Under the pieces are notes generated by a model that searched no databases, was not told the DNA's origin, and saw only the letters and a list, made by a program, of their open reading frames with translations. Of a stretch of 64,000 bases of DNA, positions 48,384 through 58,084 are shown in pieces. This stretch comes from Ruegeria atlantica (GTDB lineage: Bacteria > Pseudomonadota > Alphaproteobacteria > Rhodobacterales > Rhodobacteraceae). The DNA lies in assembly GCF_001458195.1 (NCBI RefSeq), contig NZ_CYPU01000006.1:62001-126000 (forward strand). The letters are read 5' to 3'. Position numbers and translations under genes: made by a program. The number at the start of each line of letters is the position of its first letter. Within the stretch, counting starts at the first letter, position 1.

Positions 48384-48881
48384 ATGAGTATGGAAATGCA
48401 GGTCTCCGCGCCGGGAACCAAAGGGTTCATGACCAGCTATCTTGAGGCACTTGCCTTGGTGGAACGGCTGCACCGGTTGCTATTGGACGTCATCAAGGAT
48501 GAGTTTGAGCGTGTCGGCGTATTGGGGATCAACGCCGTGCAGGCCTTGCTTTTGTTCAATATCGGCGACAATGAAGTCACCGCAGGTGAACTGAAAAGTC
48601 GTGGGTATTATCAGGGCAGCAACGTCAGCTACAACCTGAAGAAACTGGTCGAAATGGGGTACATGCACCATCAAAGATGAGAGATCGACCGCCGTTCCGT
48701 AAGGGTTCGATTGACCCCACGCGGTCGTGAAATACGCGATGTCGTATCCGAGCTGTTTTCGCGCCACGCTGAGGGGCTGCAAAATCGCGGCGTGTTGGGG
48801 CTGGAAGGCATCGACGACATCACCACATCCCTGCGTCGGGTCGAGCGGTATTGGACTGACCAAATTCGGTACATCTATTGA
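48384..48881 (+). pseudogene. MarR-like winged-helix regulator interrupted by an in-frame TGA
   Basis: The frame from MSMEMQVSAPG runs 98 codons to TGA (48678-48680) and then continues in the same frame, without another stop, for 66 codons to 48881. The continuation (EIDRRSVRVRLTPRGREI, then LRRVERYWTDQIRYIY) is the normal end of a MarR-family winged helix, the wing and dimer helix. The product thus lacks its wing unless the stop is read through. Alternatives are a recent nonsense mutation, a sequencing error, or recoding. The gene is otherwise well preserved, with a good ribosome site (GGAGG). Confidence 0.75.
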
Positions 48882-50905: not shown

Positions 50906-51817
50906 ATGCCGCTGTCCTCTGACCAACTGGCCGAGATCGAAGCGCAACGGGCGCAATCGCATCCAACACGCCGCGTTGTGGCTGAGGGGATGGAAGACCA
51001 CCTCTATACCGCGCATCAGGTGCTGGATCACGGCTTTGTACGCGTCATTGACTACATGGGGGATGACGCAGCAATTTGTCAGGCGGCACGCGTATCTTAC
51101 GGCAAAGGCACCAAATCGGTGCAGAACGATGAGGGTCTGATCCGCTATCTGATGCGGCACTGGCACTCGACCCCGTTCGAGATGTGCGAGATCAAACTGC
51201 ACGTCAAACTGCCGGTCTTTGTCGCCCGACAGTGGATTCGTCACCGGACCGCAAATGTGAATGAGTATTCTGCGCGGTATTCTATTCTGGATCGAGAGTT
51301 TTATATCCCTGCACCGGACCACGTGGCCGCACAATCCGAAGTGAACAATCAGGGTCGCGGCGACGCCCTGCAAGGGGAAGAGGCAGCCCGCGTTCTAGAA
51401 ATGCTCAAGGCCGACAGCGCGCGGTGTTATGACAATTACGAAGCCATGATCAACCAGGATGGTCAACAGGGGTTGGCGCGAGAACTGGCGCGGATGAACC
51501 TGCCTGCGAATATCTACACGCAGTGGTACTGGAAGGTGGACCTGCACAACCTGTTCCATTTCCTGCGTTTGAGGGCCGATCCACATGCTCAGTACGAAAT
51601 CCGCGTTTACGCCGACATGATGTGCAAGATCGTCGCCGACTGGGTGCCCTTCGCGTATAGAGCGTTCGAAGATTACCGTTTGGGTGCGGTCAACCTTTCG
51701 GCGCAGATGGTTGATAGCCTGCGACGCATGTTGGCCGGTGAAACTGTGACGCAGGAAAACTCGGGCATGACGGCACGGGAATGGCGCGAGTTCCAGGCTG
51801 TCATTCGCGAGGGTTAA
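50906..51817 (+). CDS. thyX: ThyX, flavin-dependent thymidylate synthase
   Basis: Makes dTMP from dUMP using FAD and methylenetetrahydrofolate. The 303-aa protein carries the ThyX motif [18 protein letters not shown] (RHRxxxxxxxS) near residue 110, and the C-terminal [13 protein letters not shown] block. AAAGGA precedes the ATG. The 175 bp before and 229 bp after it hold no gene, apart from the hairpin listed. Confidence 0.94.
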
Positions 51818-51989
51818 AGCCGACAGAACTCTTTCTTCTGATGTCATGACGCCTTTTTGAGTGGTTCATGACATCAGTCATCAGTGTGATGCGTGAACGC
51901 TCGGAAATCGTGGTGTTCGGCTAAAACGAAAGCACTCATGCCGATACCAAACCGACGCGAGGGTAAGGTTTCAAACCCTTGAGAATGGA

Positions 51990-52012
51990 CAACGGCCGGA
52001 AATTGGCCGTTG
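51990..52012 (+). terminator. Hairpin downstream of thyX
   Basis: CAACGGCC / GGCCGTTG, 8-bp perfect stem with a 7-nt loop, followed by gcctgctttta on the plus strand. The T-run is short and offset, so it is a modest terminator for thyX; the convergent cold-shock gene may share it. Confidence 0.5.
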
Positions 52013-53195: not shown

Positions 53196-53723
53196 TCATT
53201 TCACGTGCAGGGCCCGGTCGACAGACAAGGGGCCTGCGCCGTTGATCACGATAACGAGCAGCACGAAAGTCCAGAGCGTCCGCTGGTCCAGCACATTTGG
53301 TGCGGCGGTAAAAAAGCTTCCCAGCGCTGCGCCATGCCCGGTGACGTCGACAATTGTCTGAACCCAGACAAAACCGATCATACCCAAGGCCGCCAGCCGG
53401 GACAGAAGCCCGACCAGAATCAAGGCTGGCAGCAGGAACTCAGCCCAGGTGCCGGCAACTGCGATCACCCAATAAGAAAAGCCAAGTTGTGAACTGTCAT
53501 AGCTGACGGCTTCCATTGCTTTGGGAAAAATCTGGACGTATGCACCGTCAGACGGGAACAGGAAACCCAAAATGCCGCTGCCTAGTTTGGTGGTTGCTGA
53601 GTTCCAATAGTAGACAAGCAGCGTCGCGGCAAAAACCACCCGGGCCAGTGTTGGCGTGAGCCAGCCAGAGGTCATTTCCAGCCGTCCCAGGGTATTATTG
53701 TGAAAAGAGATCAGGGCAGTCAT
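53196..53723 (-). CDS. DoxX family membrane protein of the bufferin operon
   Basis: A 175-aa protein with four spans (about 28-44, 85-105, 108-128 and 148-165). WAEFLLPALILVGLLSRLAALGM is a typical DoxX segment. It is the last gene of bufA-bufB-bufC-doxX with a 4-bp overlap. DoxX proteins frequently accompany DUF692/DUF2063 genes; their role, perhaps electron transfer for the modification, is not settled. Confidence 0.82.
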   Translation of the reverse strand: MTALISFHNNTLGRLEMTSGWLTPTLARVVFAATLLVYYWNSATTKLGSGILGFLFPSDGAYVQIFPKAMEAVSYDSSQLGFSYWVIAVAGTWAEFLLPALILVGLLSRLAALGMIGFVWVQTIVDVTGHGAALGSFFTAAPNVLDQRTLWTFVLLVIVINGAGPLSVDRALHVK

Positions 53724-54481
53724 GTTGCCAGCCTTTCGATAGACACAGAAGTAATTGCGCCGCCCTGCAAAAGCAGCGCCAGAGTGGCCCCAAGGTCAAA
53801 TTCGGGGAATTCGGCAAAGGTTTGTTCAAATGCCTCGCCAATGGTAAGTCCGGCCTGAACGTGCGCAATCCAGTCCGCTCCGCCCTTGGGTAGCAAATGC
53901 GGGGCCGGGTCGAATTCGGGTCGGGTGATCAGGACGTCTTCGGACCCTGGGGCAGGTTTTGGTGCACCCTCTTCGGAATTGAAGCGCCAGATCGAAAACA
54001 GCGGCCAATCTGACCGAAGAACCTTCATCGATGGCGCAAACTCCAGCTTTGCCAGAACGATCTCTTCCGGTGGGATGGCCAGAGCATCATGCGGTGCTGC
54101 CTGGCTGTCGGCAGAGTGGTAGGACCGGCGCAGCGCCAGTTCCAGACGCGCGACGTCGGCAAGGTAGCCAAGGTGCGACAACTGCTCCATCCCGGCAAGG
54201 AATTCGGGGAATTCCTCACCGTAGAACATCATCAGCGGTGAAGAAGGGGGGTGTTTGCGCAGGAAAAGCCCGGCAAGCCCATCCATGTTCTGTGTGCCCA
54301 ACAGTCGTGCGATCACGGGAAAGGCCTGATGCATCGCTTCGGTCAGCGAAACAGCCACGTTGTTGCGGTAAACGCTGAACCGCCGCCCGGCAGGGCGTTC
54401 TGCGGCATCCCACAAACCGTCCGGAACGGCCGCCGATGGGTCAAGCAGGGCTGCGCAGAATGTGGTTTGCGAAACGCTCAT
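53720..54481 (-). CDS. bufC: BufC/HvfC-type partner protein (DUF2063)
   Basis: A 253-aa protein. The N-terminal DUF2063 domain (FCAALLDPSAAVPDG, then RRFSVYRNNVAVSLTEAMHQAFPVIARLLG) is the part that recognises precursor peptides and assists the DUF692 enzyme. The C-terminal part is variable. Overlaps bufB and doxX by 4 bp each, so it is stoichiometrically coupled to both. Confidence 0.87.
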   Translation of the reverse strand: MSVSQTTFCAALLDPSAAVPDGLWDAAERPAGRRFSVYRNNVAVSLTEAMHQAFPVIARLLGTQNMDGLAGLFLRKHPPSSPLMMFYGEEFPEFLAGMEQLSHLGYLADVARLELALRRSYHSADSQAAPHDALAIPPEEIVLAKLEFAPSMKVLRSDWPLFSIWRFNSEEGAPKPAPGSEDVLITRPEFDPAPHLLPKGGADWIAHVQAGLTIGEAFEQTFAEFPEFDLGATLALLLQGGAITSVSIERLAT

Positions 54482-55335
54482 GCGGGGATGCGGTCCAGTG
54501 CCGCCTGCGCCCGATCTGCTTCAGCCCGAAGAACGGACCAATCGGGTACGTCCGTATCCCATTCGATCAGAACGGGTTTGGGACCGGAACGGTCCAACAC
54601 GTAATCCAGCAACGTCCACACCGGATCAACGACTTCGCGACCGTGGCTGTCGATCAGCAAGGGACGACCATGGTCGTCTTCGTCTTCGTCATGACCGCCA
54701 AGGTGGATCTCGTGGACATTGTCCAGCGGGTAGGCGTCGATGTAGCTCTGCGGCGAGAAGTCCAGATTGGTGGCCGACACAAAGACGTTGTTCACGTCCA
54801 GTAAAAGACCACATCCTGTCCGACGTGCGATTTCCCGCAGGAAGTCAGGCTCGGACCATGTACTTTCTTCAAAAGCCAAATAGCTGGATGGGTTTTCCAA
54901 CAGCATTTGCCGCCCCACGGTTTCCTGAACCTGGTCTATATGGGCACAGATACGCTCCAGCGTTTCGTCCGTGTAGGGCAGGGGCAGAAGATCGTTCAGG
55001 AAATGACTGTCATGGGTCGACCAGGCCAGATGCTCGGAAAAGCTGGCCGGATTCAGCCACCCCACCAAGTGTTTCAGGCGCGCCAGATGATCGGTGTACA
55101 GGGGACCTTCTCCACCGATCGAGAGGCCAACGCCGTGGACGGAAATGGGGAATTTTTCAGAGAGATGGCGCAATTGCGCAAGCGGCCTGCCGCCGTCACC
55201 CATGTAGTTTTCGGCGTGGATTTCAAGCCAGCCGACCGGATGCGCATGGTCCAGAATCTGGTCGTAATGCTGGGGTTTATACCCGACGCCCGGTGCCGCG
55301 GGCAGCCTGTTCGATCGAAGTGAACTATCCAGCAT
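54478..55335 (-). CDS. bufB: BufB, DUF692 multinuclear iron oxidative enzyme (MNIO)
   Basis: A 285-aa TIM-barrel enzyme that modifies cysteines of a precursor peptide. Metal-binding segments are seen in order: VGWLEIHAENYMG, ISVHGVGLSIGG, SEHLAW, LLENPSSYLAF, LLDVNNVFVSA, VHEIHLGGHDED and VLIEWDTDVP. The ATG has GGAGG 9 nt upstream; a TTG two codons earlier is less likely. The substrate is probably the DUF2282 peptide encoded 70 bp upstream. Confidence 0.92.
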   Translation of the reverse strand: MLDSSLRSNRLPAAPGVGYKPQHYDQILDHAHPVGWLEIHAENYMGDGGRPLAQLRHLSEKFPISVHGVGLSIGGEGPLYTDHLARLKHLVGWLNPASFSEHLAWSTHDSHFLNDLLPLPYTDETLERICAHIDQVQETVGRQMLLENPSSYLAFEESTWSEPDFLREIARRTGCGLLLDVNNVFVSATNLDFSPQSYIDAYPLDNVHEIHLGGHDEDEDDHGRPLLIDSHGREVVDPVWTLLDYVLDRSGPKPVLIEWDTDVPDWSVLRAEADRAQAALDRIPA

Positions 55336-55405
55336 GTGCAAATCCTCCGGTCACGAAAAGAGGCGGGCGATAGGGCCCGCCCCTCCGATTCTCAGATGCT
55401 TGGGC

Positions 55406-55708
55406 TTATGCCGGCAGGTCGCGCTCCAGCGGTTCCAGCGAACCTTCACGCGCTGCACCATCTGCCGACTTGGGCAGTTCGATATCGGCGCAGGTTCCAG
55501 CGTCAACCAGTGTCCAGGCATTGCCCTGATAGTCAACGGTCGAGGTGCCCGCGCAGGTGGTGCCGGGGCCAGCGGCACAGTCGTTCTGACCGGCCAGCGA
55601 AACGCCATAGCATTTCTCTTTGGCTTGTGCGGAGGCGGTTGTGGCGACGCCGGATACGGCTGCTGCAACTGCGCTTGCGATAACCAGGGTTTTTGCGGTG
55701 TTCGACAT
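55406..55708 (-). CDS. bufA: BufA1-type bufferin precursor (DUF2282)
   Basis: A 100-aa peptide with a signal sequence (residues 1-27, ending TTASA) and four cysteines at 33, 44, 52 and 73 in the DUF2282 pattern [27 protein letters not shown]. In characterised bufferins some of these cysteines become thiooxazoles that chelate copper in the periplasm. First gene of the operon, with AAGGGA upstream of the ATG. The 222-bp region before it should hold its promoter. Confidence 0.9.
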
Positions 55709-55880
55709 CTCGGTAATCCCTTTTGATGACTGCGTATGTCTTCTTGTGACAATGACAAAGGTAGTAGCTAAATCGGGGCAGGTGAATTCACGAGCCCGTG
55801 TCTCACAACCCCGTCAAAAAGCGTAATGCCCTCTTGAAGGTTAACAAACTGTTTTTGAATTGAAAAATGGAAAATGTTTC

Positions 55881-55908
55881 AATCCGACCCCGAATTTGGG
55901 GTCGGATT
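55881..55908. terminator. Hairpin downstream of thrS
   Basis: AATCCGACCCC / GGGGTCGGATT, 11-bp perfect stem with a 6-nt loop, placed 23 bp after the thrS stop. The T-run is weak on both strands (TTTC on plus, a later ATTTTCC on minus). Confidence 0.65.
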
Positions 55909-55930
55909 TCGTGCGAATTATCGCCGAATG

Positions 55931-57889
55931 TTACAGAAGGTCGGGCGGGGTAGCCGCCAAAGACAACTCTTTTGTTACAGCTTCAAGCGATTGAACCTGT
56001 GTCTGTTTTTCGCCAAGGCGGCGCACACTTACGGTACGCTCGTCAACTTCGCGGTGACCGACGGCGAGAATGATCGGCACCTTGCCGACCGAGTGCTCAC
56101 GGACCTTGTAGTTGATCTTTTCGTTGCGAATATCCGCCTCGGCCCGCACGCCTGCGGCCTTGAGCGTTTCGACAACTTCCAAAACATAGTCATCCGCCTC
56201 GGACGTGATCGAGGCGACCACCACCTGACGCGGGGCCAACCAGAACGGAAGCTTGCCAGCGTGCTCTTCGATCAGGATACCGATGAAGCGTTCGAACGAG
56301 CCCAATGTCGCACGGTGCAGCATGAACGGACGATGCTTGGCACCATCGGCTCCGATAAAGTTGGCATCCAGACGTTCGGGCAAGTTAGGGTCAACCTGCA
56401 AGGTGCCGCACTGCCATGTCCGGCCGATCGCGTCGGTCAAGGTGAATTCCAGTTTGGGGCCGTAGAACGCGCCTTCGCCTTCCAGAACCTCATAGTCATA
56501 GCCCGCTGCCCTACAGGCATCACCCAGCGCCTTTTCGACCAGATCCCAGCTTTCATCCGACCCGATCCGCTTTTCCGGGCGGGTCGACAGTTTGATGGTC
56601 CAGTCATGAAACCCGAGGTCAGCATAGACCTTGGACAGGAACGCAATGAACTTGGCGGTCTCAGATTCGATCTGTTCCTCAGCGCAGAAAATATGGCCGT
56701 CATCCTGCGTAAAGCCACGGACCCGCATAATCCCATGCAAAGCGCCCGAGGGTTCGTACCGCGCGCAAGATCCGAACTCGGCCATGCGCAGAGGCAGATC
56801 GCGATAAGACTTCAAACCCTGATTGAAAACCTGCACGTGACACGGGCAGTTCATCGGCTTCAGCGCATTGATCGCCTTTTCGCGGGCGTGTTCTTCGTCG
56901 ACTTCGACGATGAACATGTTCTCTTGATACTTGTCCCAGTGGCCAGACGCTTCCCACAGCTTGCGGTCCACGACCTGCGGCGTGTTCACTTCGACATAGC
57001 CGTCTCGTTCCTGCATCCGGCGCATATAGTCCTGCAGGGTGGTGTAGATTTTCCAGCCGTTCGGATGCCAGAAGATCTGGCCCGGCGCTTCTTCCTGCAT
57101 GTGGAACAGGTTCATCTCGCGCCCCAGCTTGCGGTGATCACGCTTGGCAGCCTCTTCCAGCATATGCAGGTGCGCTTTCAGCTTTTCCTTGCCGGTGAAG
57201 GCCACGCCATAAATGCGCTGCAGCATCGCGCGGTCGCTGTCGCCACGCCAATAGGCGCCAGCAATGCTCATCAGCTTGAAGGCGTCGCCCGGCAACTGGC
57301 CGGTATGCTGCAAATGCGGGCCACGGCAGAGGTCCTGCCAGTGGCCGTGCCAGTACATGCGAAGCGGTTCGTCACCCGGAATGGCTTCGATCAGCTCGAC
57401 CTTATAAGGCTCGTTATTGGCCTTGTAGAATTCGATTGCGCGCTGACGGTCCCAAATTTCGGTGGTCACGGGATCGCGCTTGTTGATGATCTCTTTCATC
57501 TTTTTCTCGATGAGGCCGAGATCTTCGGGCGTGAACGGTTCTGCCCGGTCGAAATCATAGTACCAGCCGTTGTCAATCACGGGGCCGATGGTGACCTTGG
57601 TTGCAGGCCAGATTTCCTGCACCGCGCGCGCCATCACGTGCGCGAGATCATGACGGATCAGCTCGTTGGCCTGTTCCTCATCTTTCATGGTGTGGAGGGC
57701 GATCTGCGCGTCAGATTCGATGGGCCACTGCAGGTCCCAGTGCTGGCCGTTCACGGTGGCCGAGATGGCCTTTTTGGCCAGTGAGGTCGAGATGTCGGCA
57801 GCCACCTGCGCGGGCGTCACGCCTGCGTCGAAGGATCGGGAATTGCCATCGGGAAAAGTAAGGGAGACTGACTGTGAGTCCAGGGCCAT
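55931..57889 (-). CDS. thrS: Threonyl-tRNA synthetase
   Basis: Charges tRNA-Thr. The 652-aa protein has an N-terminal TGS domain ([17 protein letters not shown]), the editing domain ([16 protein letters not shown]), the class II core with zinc Cys in [18 protein letters not shown], and the anticodon-binding C-terminus. Start MALDSQSVS has GAGGAG 7 nt upstream; an ATG 10 codons earlier is open. A long plus-strand frame covering this gene is a shadow. Confidence 0.96.
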
Positions 57890-58084
57890 ATCGGCTCTCC
57901 TCGTCGGTTTGGCGCCCACTGAACGCCCGGTTGCGGGTTATGTGTGTTTGATCCATTTGGCAGTTGCAGCATGACCTGTCAAGCACCCAACCGCGCTGTG
58001 GCTGACGCGGCGGGAGGTTCGAAATCGGGAATTGCAGCCACCGGGCAGCCGTGCATGATGAACCCCAAAAGGAAAGAGGGCGAC

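Follow-up and report, generated by a model that had tools for sequence, protein, structure and literature searches.

How is a bufferin operon controlled in a bacterium that lacks the switch governing its better-studied relatives? We address this question for the locus bufA-bufB-bufC-doxX (positions 53196-55708, minus strand) in a 64,000-nucleotide stretch of the Ruegeria atlantica genome (contig NZ_CYPU01000006.1, positions 62,001 to 126,000), hereafter the window. Homologous operons in Caulobacter are driven by sigma-F through the motif GTAACC-N16-CGAA and held by NrsF (PMC3511200); copper induces them, and a mutant in sigF is sensitive to the metal (PMC8224329). The R. atlantica genome yields no match to NrsF (PF06532), while the Caulobacter control is positive. 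We consider it probable that the window carries a complete Buf1-type operon with its own promoter, dependent on a conserved upstream element that we name the buf box and driven by an activator, together with a hairpin that favours the precursor.

A tandem-dyad box before bufA

The buf box, at 55788-55816 on the minus strand, was first met as a near-invariant intergenic block in 30 aligned upstream regions from the genus. It is 29 bp long and consists of two tandem dyads with a 15-bp period, TSACR-N4-YGTGA-N2-CACR-N4-YGTGA, whose half-site positions mirror one another about the centre to form a dyad of dyads; we propose it as an activator operator. A wider set of named loci was fetched by BufB similarity, and 79 of these 80 were retained after dropping one cut at a contig end (L099). 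Their full consensus is TSACR-N4-YGTGA-N2-CACR-N4-YGTGA-N-T, with single loci deviating at single positions, and by matrix score the box is present before bufA in 79 of 79. The lowest-scoring locus reaches 19.7 bits, compared with 5.0 bits for the best of 790 mononucleotide-shuffled upstream regions, the matrix having been trained on the same loci. An offset scan also identified an extra half-site, [TC]NACR, at a 10-bp upstream offset in 54 of the 79 loci and in at most three of 79 at 18 other offsets. In the window this half-site is TTACG (55822-55826, minus strand), 10 bp upstream of the first half-site of the box.

Downstream of the box lies a -10-like hexamer, TACCTT (55758-55763, minus strand), at a distance of 24 bp. 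The spacing recurs across the 79 loci: a TAnnnT hexamer is found 24 or 25 bp past the box in 66 and 22-25 bp past it in 67, compared with 7% of shuffles, and nine loci have no TAnnnT in the stretch searched. With this spacing the second dyad would lie at about -43 and cover the -35 region, which favours activation over repression; an activator bound there would fit the layout. The earlier note on this DNA had seen no evident copper-responsive operator between 55709 and 55880, a statement that proved wrong, as the conserved box, the half-site and the -10-like hexamer were all found there. An alternative would dispense with an operator and view the box as the extended promoter of an extracytoplasmic function (ECF) sigma factor other than sigma-F. 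Such a change would be a simple swap of one sigma factor for another, given that the Caulobacter operons are themselves under sigma-F; we nevertheless consider it improbable, because the TAnnnT hexamer follows downstream of the box and because the symmetric two-dyad layout differs from a -35/-10 pair.

The box is strongly conserved and apparently new to the literature. No description of it turned up among the publications listed on bufferins, captophorins and DUF2282, and the main text of PMC12452194 contains no word beginning with Rhodobacter. The R. atlantica genome contains one exact match, and the next two matches have two mismatches over the 18 specified positions. Allowing three mismatches gave 31 matches against 15 for the reversed control, so that only the exact match is informative.

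Distribution of the box and of sigma-F/NrsF control

A survey of 295 Rhodobacteraceae genomes, drawn evenly across the family and searched with the exact 29-base pattern, recovered the box in 62, one match in each, with none for the reversed-pattern control. Placement was checked for 30 fetched matches and, by comparison of coordinates, for 12 of the other 32. All 30 fetched matches lie 68-105 bp upstream of a same-strand bufA (start codon extrapolated in four). The further 12 likewise lie before bufA by their coordinates and, together with two of the fetched matches, stand 155-191 bp before the DUF2282 domain. Furthermore, all 62 box genomes fall among the 211 of 295 that encode DUF2282 (P 4e-11, shared descent ignored). 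A slightly shorter pattern searched in 385 genomes of the class gave four matches, two within the family and two outside it, against one for the reversed control; no bufA lies within 1.5 kb of the two outside matches (L208 and L209), which thus look like chance. The upstream neighbour thrS (55931-57919, minus strand), which lies outside the operon and marks this lineage of bufferin loci, was found at 79 of 80 named loci, the remaining one being cut off, and at 30 of 30 box loci. One named locus, L102 (JAHVJD010000002.1), is titled Nocardioides marinus and carries a Leisingera-like bufferin operon with a buf box and thrS, probably because of mislabelling or contamination.

In the window itself a sigma-F promoter was sought and rejected, the best match to GTAACC-N16-CGAA within 400 bp having three mismatches and lying inside thrS. 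We then compared the two forms of control in family loci ranked by DUF2282 score, taking the top 30 irrespective of the box and counting a box from a score of 15 upwards, a limit chosen post hoc (best shuffle 7.9). None of the 11 loci with a box has the sigma-F motif at one mismatch or fewer, as against 11 of the 19 without; our estimate for chance is about 1%. Linkage to thrS follows the same division, with thrS within 1.5 kb at 10 of the 11 box loci and at none of the 11 sigma-F loci. Three thrS-linked loci have no scored box, and one of these (L257) has a degenerate one by eye. At class level, where 25 of 30 loci were read (leaving out L214, L229 and three others), four of the 25 have the sigma-F motif at one mismatch or fewer.

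NrsF scores over the cut-off in 40 of the 295 family genomes, 33 of which have DUF2282, and in none of the 62 box genomes; among 26 genomes compared by coordinates, it lies within 5 kb of DUF2282 in 21. The box and sigma-F/NrsF are therefore mutually exclusive in the samples tested, which suggests an exchange of regulators, and the box seems to be a substitute for the stress-sensor switch of the better-studied relatives. Whether a large thrS-linked lineage of Rhodobacteraceae has swapped sigma-F/NrsF for a dedicated, nearly single-target activator reading a tandem-dyad operator is, in our judgement, an evenly balanced question. If it has, one and the same copper-binding ribosomally synthesized and post-translationally modified peptide (RiPP) would be under either of two control systems that exclude each other, with an as yet unnamed metal sensor as the activator.

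Candidate regulators of the box

Clustering of open reading frames (ORFs) within approximately 6 kb of bufB at the 80 loci placed thrS, an arsC/spx-like gene, thyX and others among the 30 largest clusters. Two of these 30 are regulator-like, an ArsR-type cluster with an AHSA1 domain in 16 loci and a MarR-type cluster in 14 (both assigned by Pfam), and no regulator-like cluster exceeds 16 of 80. The window has a MarR-family regulator gene at 48384-48878 (plus strand), 4.3 kb beyond doxX and 84% identical to the copy in L085, whose Pfam matches are HTH_27 and MarR_2; at least 14 of the 80 loci have a gene of this type downstream of the operon. Its position at the edge of the fetched DNA leaves room for linkage to the operon. 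The box might accordingly be the operator of a MarR-, TetR- or ArsR-type regulator, acting as repressor or activator and possibly sensing something other than copper. Its symmetry is compatible with many dimeric regulators, the MarR-type gene recurs despite its edge position, and the Caulobacter homologues respond to chromate and cadmium as well (PMC3511200). Nevertheless, the MarR-type gene sits several genes from the operon, the ArsR-type gene lies on the other side and has no match in the window, and the second dyad near -43 speaks for activation rather than repression. We treat this reading as a tentative one, with a real though minority chance of being correct.

The genome contains 36 matches to the OmpR family, none of which exceeds the cut-off of the CopR/CusR model TIGR01387 (best 244.4 against 279.2 bits). 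A direct repeat of half-sites at 10 bp, such as the additional half-site makes with the first one of the box, would suit OmpR-type regulators. The box could be the site of a CusR/CopR-like regulator of this family, one that acts in copper two-component signalling and controls hardly more than a single target. In E. coli, CusR recognizes TGACAAnnTTGTCA, whose arms run in the same sense as those of TSACR-N4-YGTSA and are likewise 4 bp apart; the CusR regulon is described as very restricted (PMC11195947), just as the full box occurs once per matching genome. CusRS-like matches have also been described in a Ruegeria (PMC10141476). Against this stand the sub-threshold scores and the tandem dyads at a 15-bp period, which are unlike the single CusR box. 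An autoregulated response regulator was rejected as a candidate after inspection of the stretches around the 12 best of the 36 OmpR-type matches: no dyad precedes any regulator gene, and the three single dyads seen, in two of the 12 stretches, all lie inside ORFs, one of them within a regulator gene. We regard a CusR/CopR-like regulator as rather unlikely, while keeping it among the candidates.

Returning to an activator-driven promoter that depends on the box, several observations weigh against it in addition to the outcome of these regulator searches. The box is not universal, as its exact form occurs in just 62 of the 211 DUF2282 genomes and a box is scored in only 11 of the 30 family loci ranked by DUF2282 score. 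Of the 211 DUF2282 genomes, another 116 lack both the exact box and an NrsF that passes the cut-off, and some of them may hold inexact boxes. The exclusion also has its blemishes: the P value for the absence of NrsF from box genomes, 3e-6, ignores shared descent; NrsF is matched at 21.5 bits, under the cut-off, in one genome with the box (G296); and at two of the 79 named loci the box is accompanied by a sigma-F match with one mismatch. Finally, among 67 loci compared with TTGACA at -35, eight match at two of six positions, 32 at three and 27 at four, so that a plain promoter is possible in those 27.

The operon, its predicted chemistry and its known relatives

Judged by its sequence, the locus is a standard complete Buf1-type bufferin operon of a family already known. 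The precursor gene bufA (55406-55708, minus strand) encodes 100 residues, of which 30-78 match Pfam DUF2282 (PF10048; 1.4e-24, 86.3 bits against a cut-off of 22.4); NCBIfam assigns it no family. The 285-residue MNIO enzyme (formerly DUF692) encoded by bufB (54478-55335, minus strand, ATG at 55335) matches Pfam MbnB_TglH_ChrH at 2.6e-105 and scores 378.4 bits against a curated cut-off of 310 for NCBIfam NF050167, MNIO_BufB ('MNIO family bufferin maturase'), while falling under the cut-off of each of four other listed NCBIfam MNIO models. It aligns to PDB 3bww over 16-218 and 222-274, is 99% identical to that of its nearest named relative, Ruegeria sp. Alg231-54, and is the one MNIO match in the whole genome, which likewise has a single DUF2282 match. 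BufC (53720-54481, minus strand, 253 residues) is assigned as a DUF2063 partner with a RiPP recognition element (RRE)-type domain (PME type 1), a type whose members have roughly 250-260 residues. It matches Pfam DUF2063 (PF09836) over the cut-off at 5.9e-25 and scores 44.5 against a cut-off of 142 for the NCBIfam HvfC model, which it does not reach. An AlphaFold2 model built from 46 sequences has a mean predicted local distance difference test (pLDDT) score of 91.6, and a Foldseek search with it returned TglI (8hi7, 7.7e-07; 8hci, 8.1e-07) and NGO1945 (3dee, 7.5e-05) as all three PDB matches at E <= 0.001; NGO1945 is cited in PMC12452194 as a typical partner combining DUF2063 and RRE. A sequence search of the PDB found no relative of BufA or BufC.

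The last gene, doxX (53196-53723, minus strand), encodes a small membrane protein of 175 residues. Four-base overlaps (ATGA) join bufB to bufC and bufC to doxX, and 70 bp separate bufA from bufB. This order matches Buf1 bufferin clusters, in which bufABC is often accompanied by doxX, so that gene families, the BufB cut-off, the BufC fold and gene order agree with the bufferin-operon call of the earlier note. The weak point is DoxX, which narrowly misses its Pfam cut-off (1.5e-4, 22.8 bits against 23.6) and would count against the assignment; its identity is supported by the colinearity of bufB-bufC-doxX in 80 of 80 related loci. The doxX gene is also swapped between strains. Compared with the nearest strain (L033) it is 55-78% identical (protein 67%), while flanking 100-base blocks are 89-100% identical. 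The window copy is of allele type A. Of the two alleles, the GAYxQ and GAFGQ types, the Ruegeria-like loci L033-L057 (25 in all) have 10 and 15 respectively and the 55 other loci 38 and 8, nine of the latter being unassigned. A second short block of divergence, 68-79% identical to L033 within near-identical surroundings, lies at about 51800-52000, between a cold-shock-like gene and thyX.

BufA has cysteines at 33, 44, 52 and 73 behind a hydrophobic N-terminus with ASA-QA, which by eye suggests a Sec signal peptide. The four-cysteine DUF2282 precursor described earlier is borne out, all four being invariant in 40 of 40 aligned BufA sequences, the window copy included. Beyond the Pfam match, R87, G89, S90, L91, R96, D97 and P99 belong to a conserved C-terminal tail and are also invariant in 40 of 40. 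We rejected the idea that this tail is a Roseobacter speciality, since other families of Alphaproteobacteria have GSL and RDLP-like ends too. Between the last cysteine and the tail, Ruegeria BufA sequences (L035, L038, L040 and others) have a linker in either a short form (ELPDNRKGSLEP) or a long form. A bufA match is present in 54 of 54 genomes of the genus; in G029 it covers residues 1-34 only (G029:C6:98638-98739) and lies inside a 566-residue open frame, as a broken, fused or misassembled gene.

Modification in Buf1 falls on the central cysteines, and a disulphide joins the outer pair (PMC12452194, Fig. 3 legend); on this homology the thiooxazole sites of BufA are predicted to be Cys44 and Cys52. 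The modified pair can hence be predicted, as had been expected, by homology with Buf1 and not from cysteine spacing alone. A structure model of BufA (pLDDT 51) is too poor for a check of the disulphide, which tells against confidence in this part. Both the thiooxazole chemistry and copper protection we infer from the characterized Caulobacter Buf1, which is described as chelating Cu(I) and Cu(II) and aiding growth under excess copper (PMC12452194). BufA would be made with a Sec signal peptide, a BufB-BufC complex would oxidize Cys44 and Cys52 to 5-thiooxazoles in the cytosol, and export would be followed by formation of a Cys33-Cys73 disulphide and capture of excess copper in the periplasm, DoxX serving as a putative accessory membrane protein. 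Alternatively, the operon might serve another metal or general stress, with copper incidental, given that in Cupriavidus related clusters react to gold and silver, and in Caulobacter to cadmium and chromate (PMC8224329, PMC3511200). The chelation and growth data for Buf1 make this a long shot, as does the report that sigF inactivation impaired growth in copper and not in chromate or cadmium (PMC8224329).

Transcription would start from the operon's own promoter, which follows thrS, at a point some 43 bp past the middle of the second dyad, once a trans-acting and probably metal-responsive activator had bound the box in place of the Caulobacter sigma-F/NrsF switch. A second level of control may lie between bufA and bufB, where a hairpin with a 12-bp stem (G-U allowed) and a 6-nucleotide loop occupies 55357-55386 (minus strand); a terminator scan listed a shorter form of it as terminator-like. 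We surveyed this gap in the 79 loci, using up to 160 bases of each. Stems of at least nine pairs (G-U allowed) occur in 71 gaps, compared with 3.3% of mononucleotide shuffles, and involve 60 different arm pairs, which indicates that pairing and not sequence is conserved. In 59 of 79 the gap folds with a z-score below -2, and in 31 of 79 a stem is followed by a T-run. The hairpin may raise the precursor over the enzyme, either by partial termination or by protecting the bufA message, and offers a simple idea for how the two are balanced.

A further hairpin follows thrS, at 55882-55907 on the minus strand (ATCCGACCCC-AAATTC-GGGGTCGGAT); it was seen by eye, also appears in the 30-locus alignment and may end the thrS transcript, and the terminator scan does not list it. 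Around the thrS stop codon (55929-55979), TGTAACA occurs twice, 44 bp apart. The pair looks invariant in the 30 genus loci and spans synonymous positions, as if a second signal overlapped the end of thrS. A search of Rfam gave two chance matches only, far under gathering scores and on the opposite strand.

By itself the box leads to bufA when whole genomes from many genera are searched; it could therefore act as bait for the missing sensor, and it opens the control of copper defence in marine bacteria to direct testing. Among known systems, the arms of the E. coli CusR box resemble the buf-box dyads in being inverted, TGACR-type and 4 bp apart (PMC11195947). This is resemblance only: the buf box differs in its two tandem dyads with an additional half-site and in an inner position that is mostly G/C. 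The captophorins, or 5-thiooxazole RiPPs (fontiphorin, oxazolin, gonophorin), likewise combine an MNIO enzyme and a PME1 partner with copper-linked cysteine precursors (PMC12668002); they carry EGKCG repeats, whereas Ruegeria BufA belongs to the DUF2282 group with four single cysteines. The closest counterpart is the Caulobacter Buf1 operon CC3254-CC3257 (CCNA_03363-03366), which has the same four families in the same order, with DoxX last (PMC3511200). Its control is by sigma-F and NrsF, whereas in Ruegeria NrsF is absent, the sigma-F motif is matched only at three mismatches and the buf box stands in its place.

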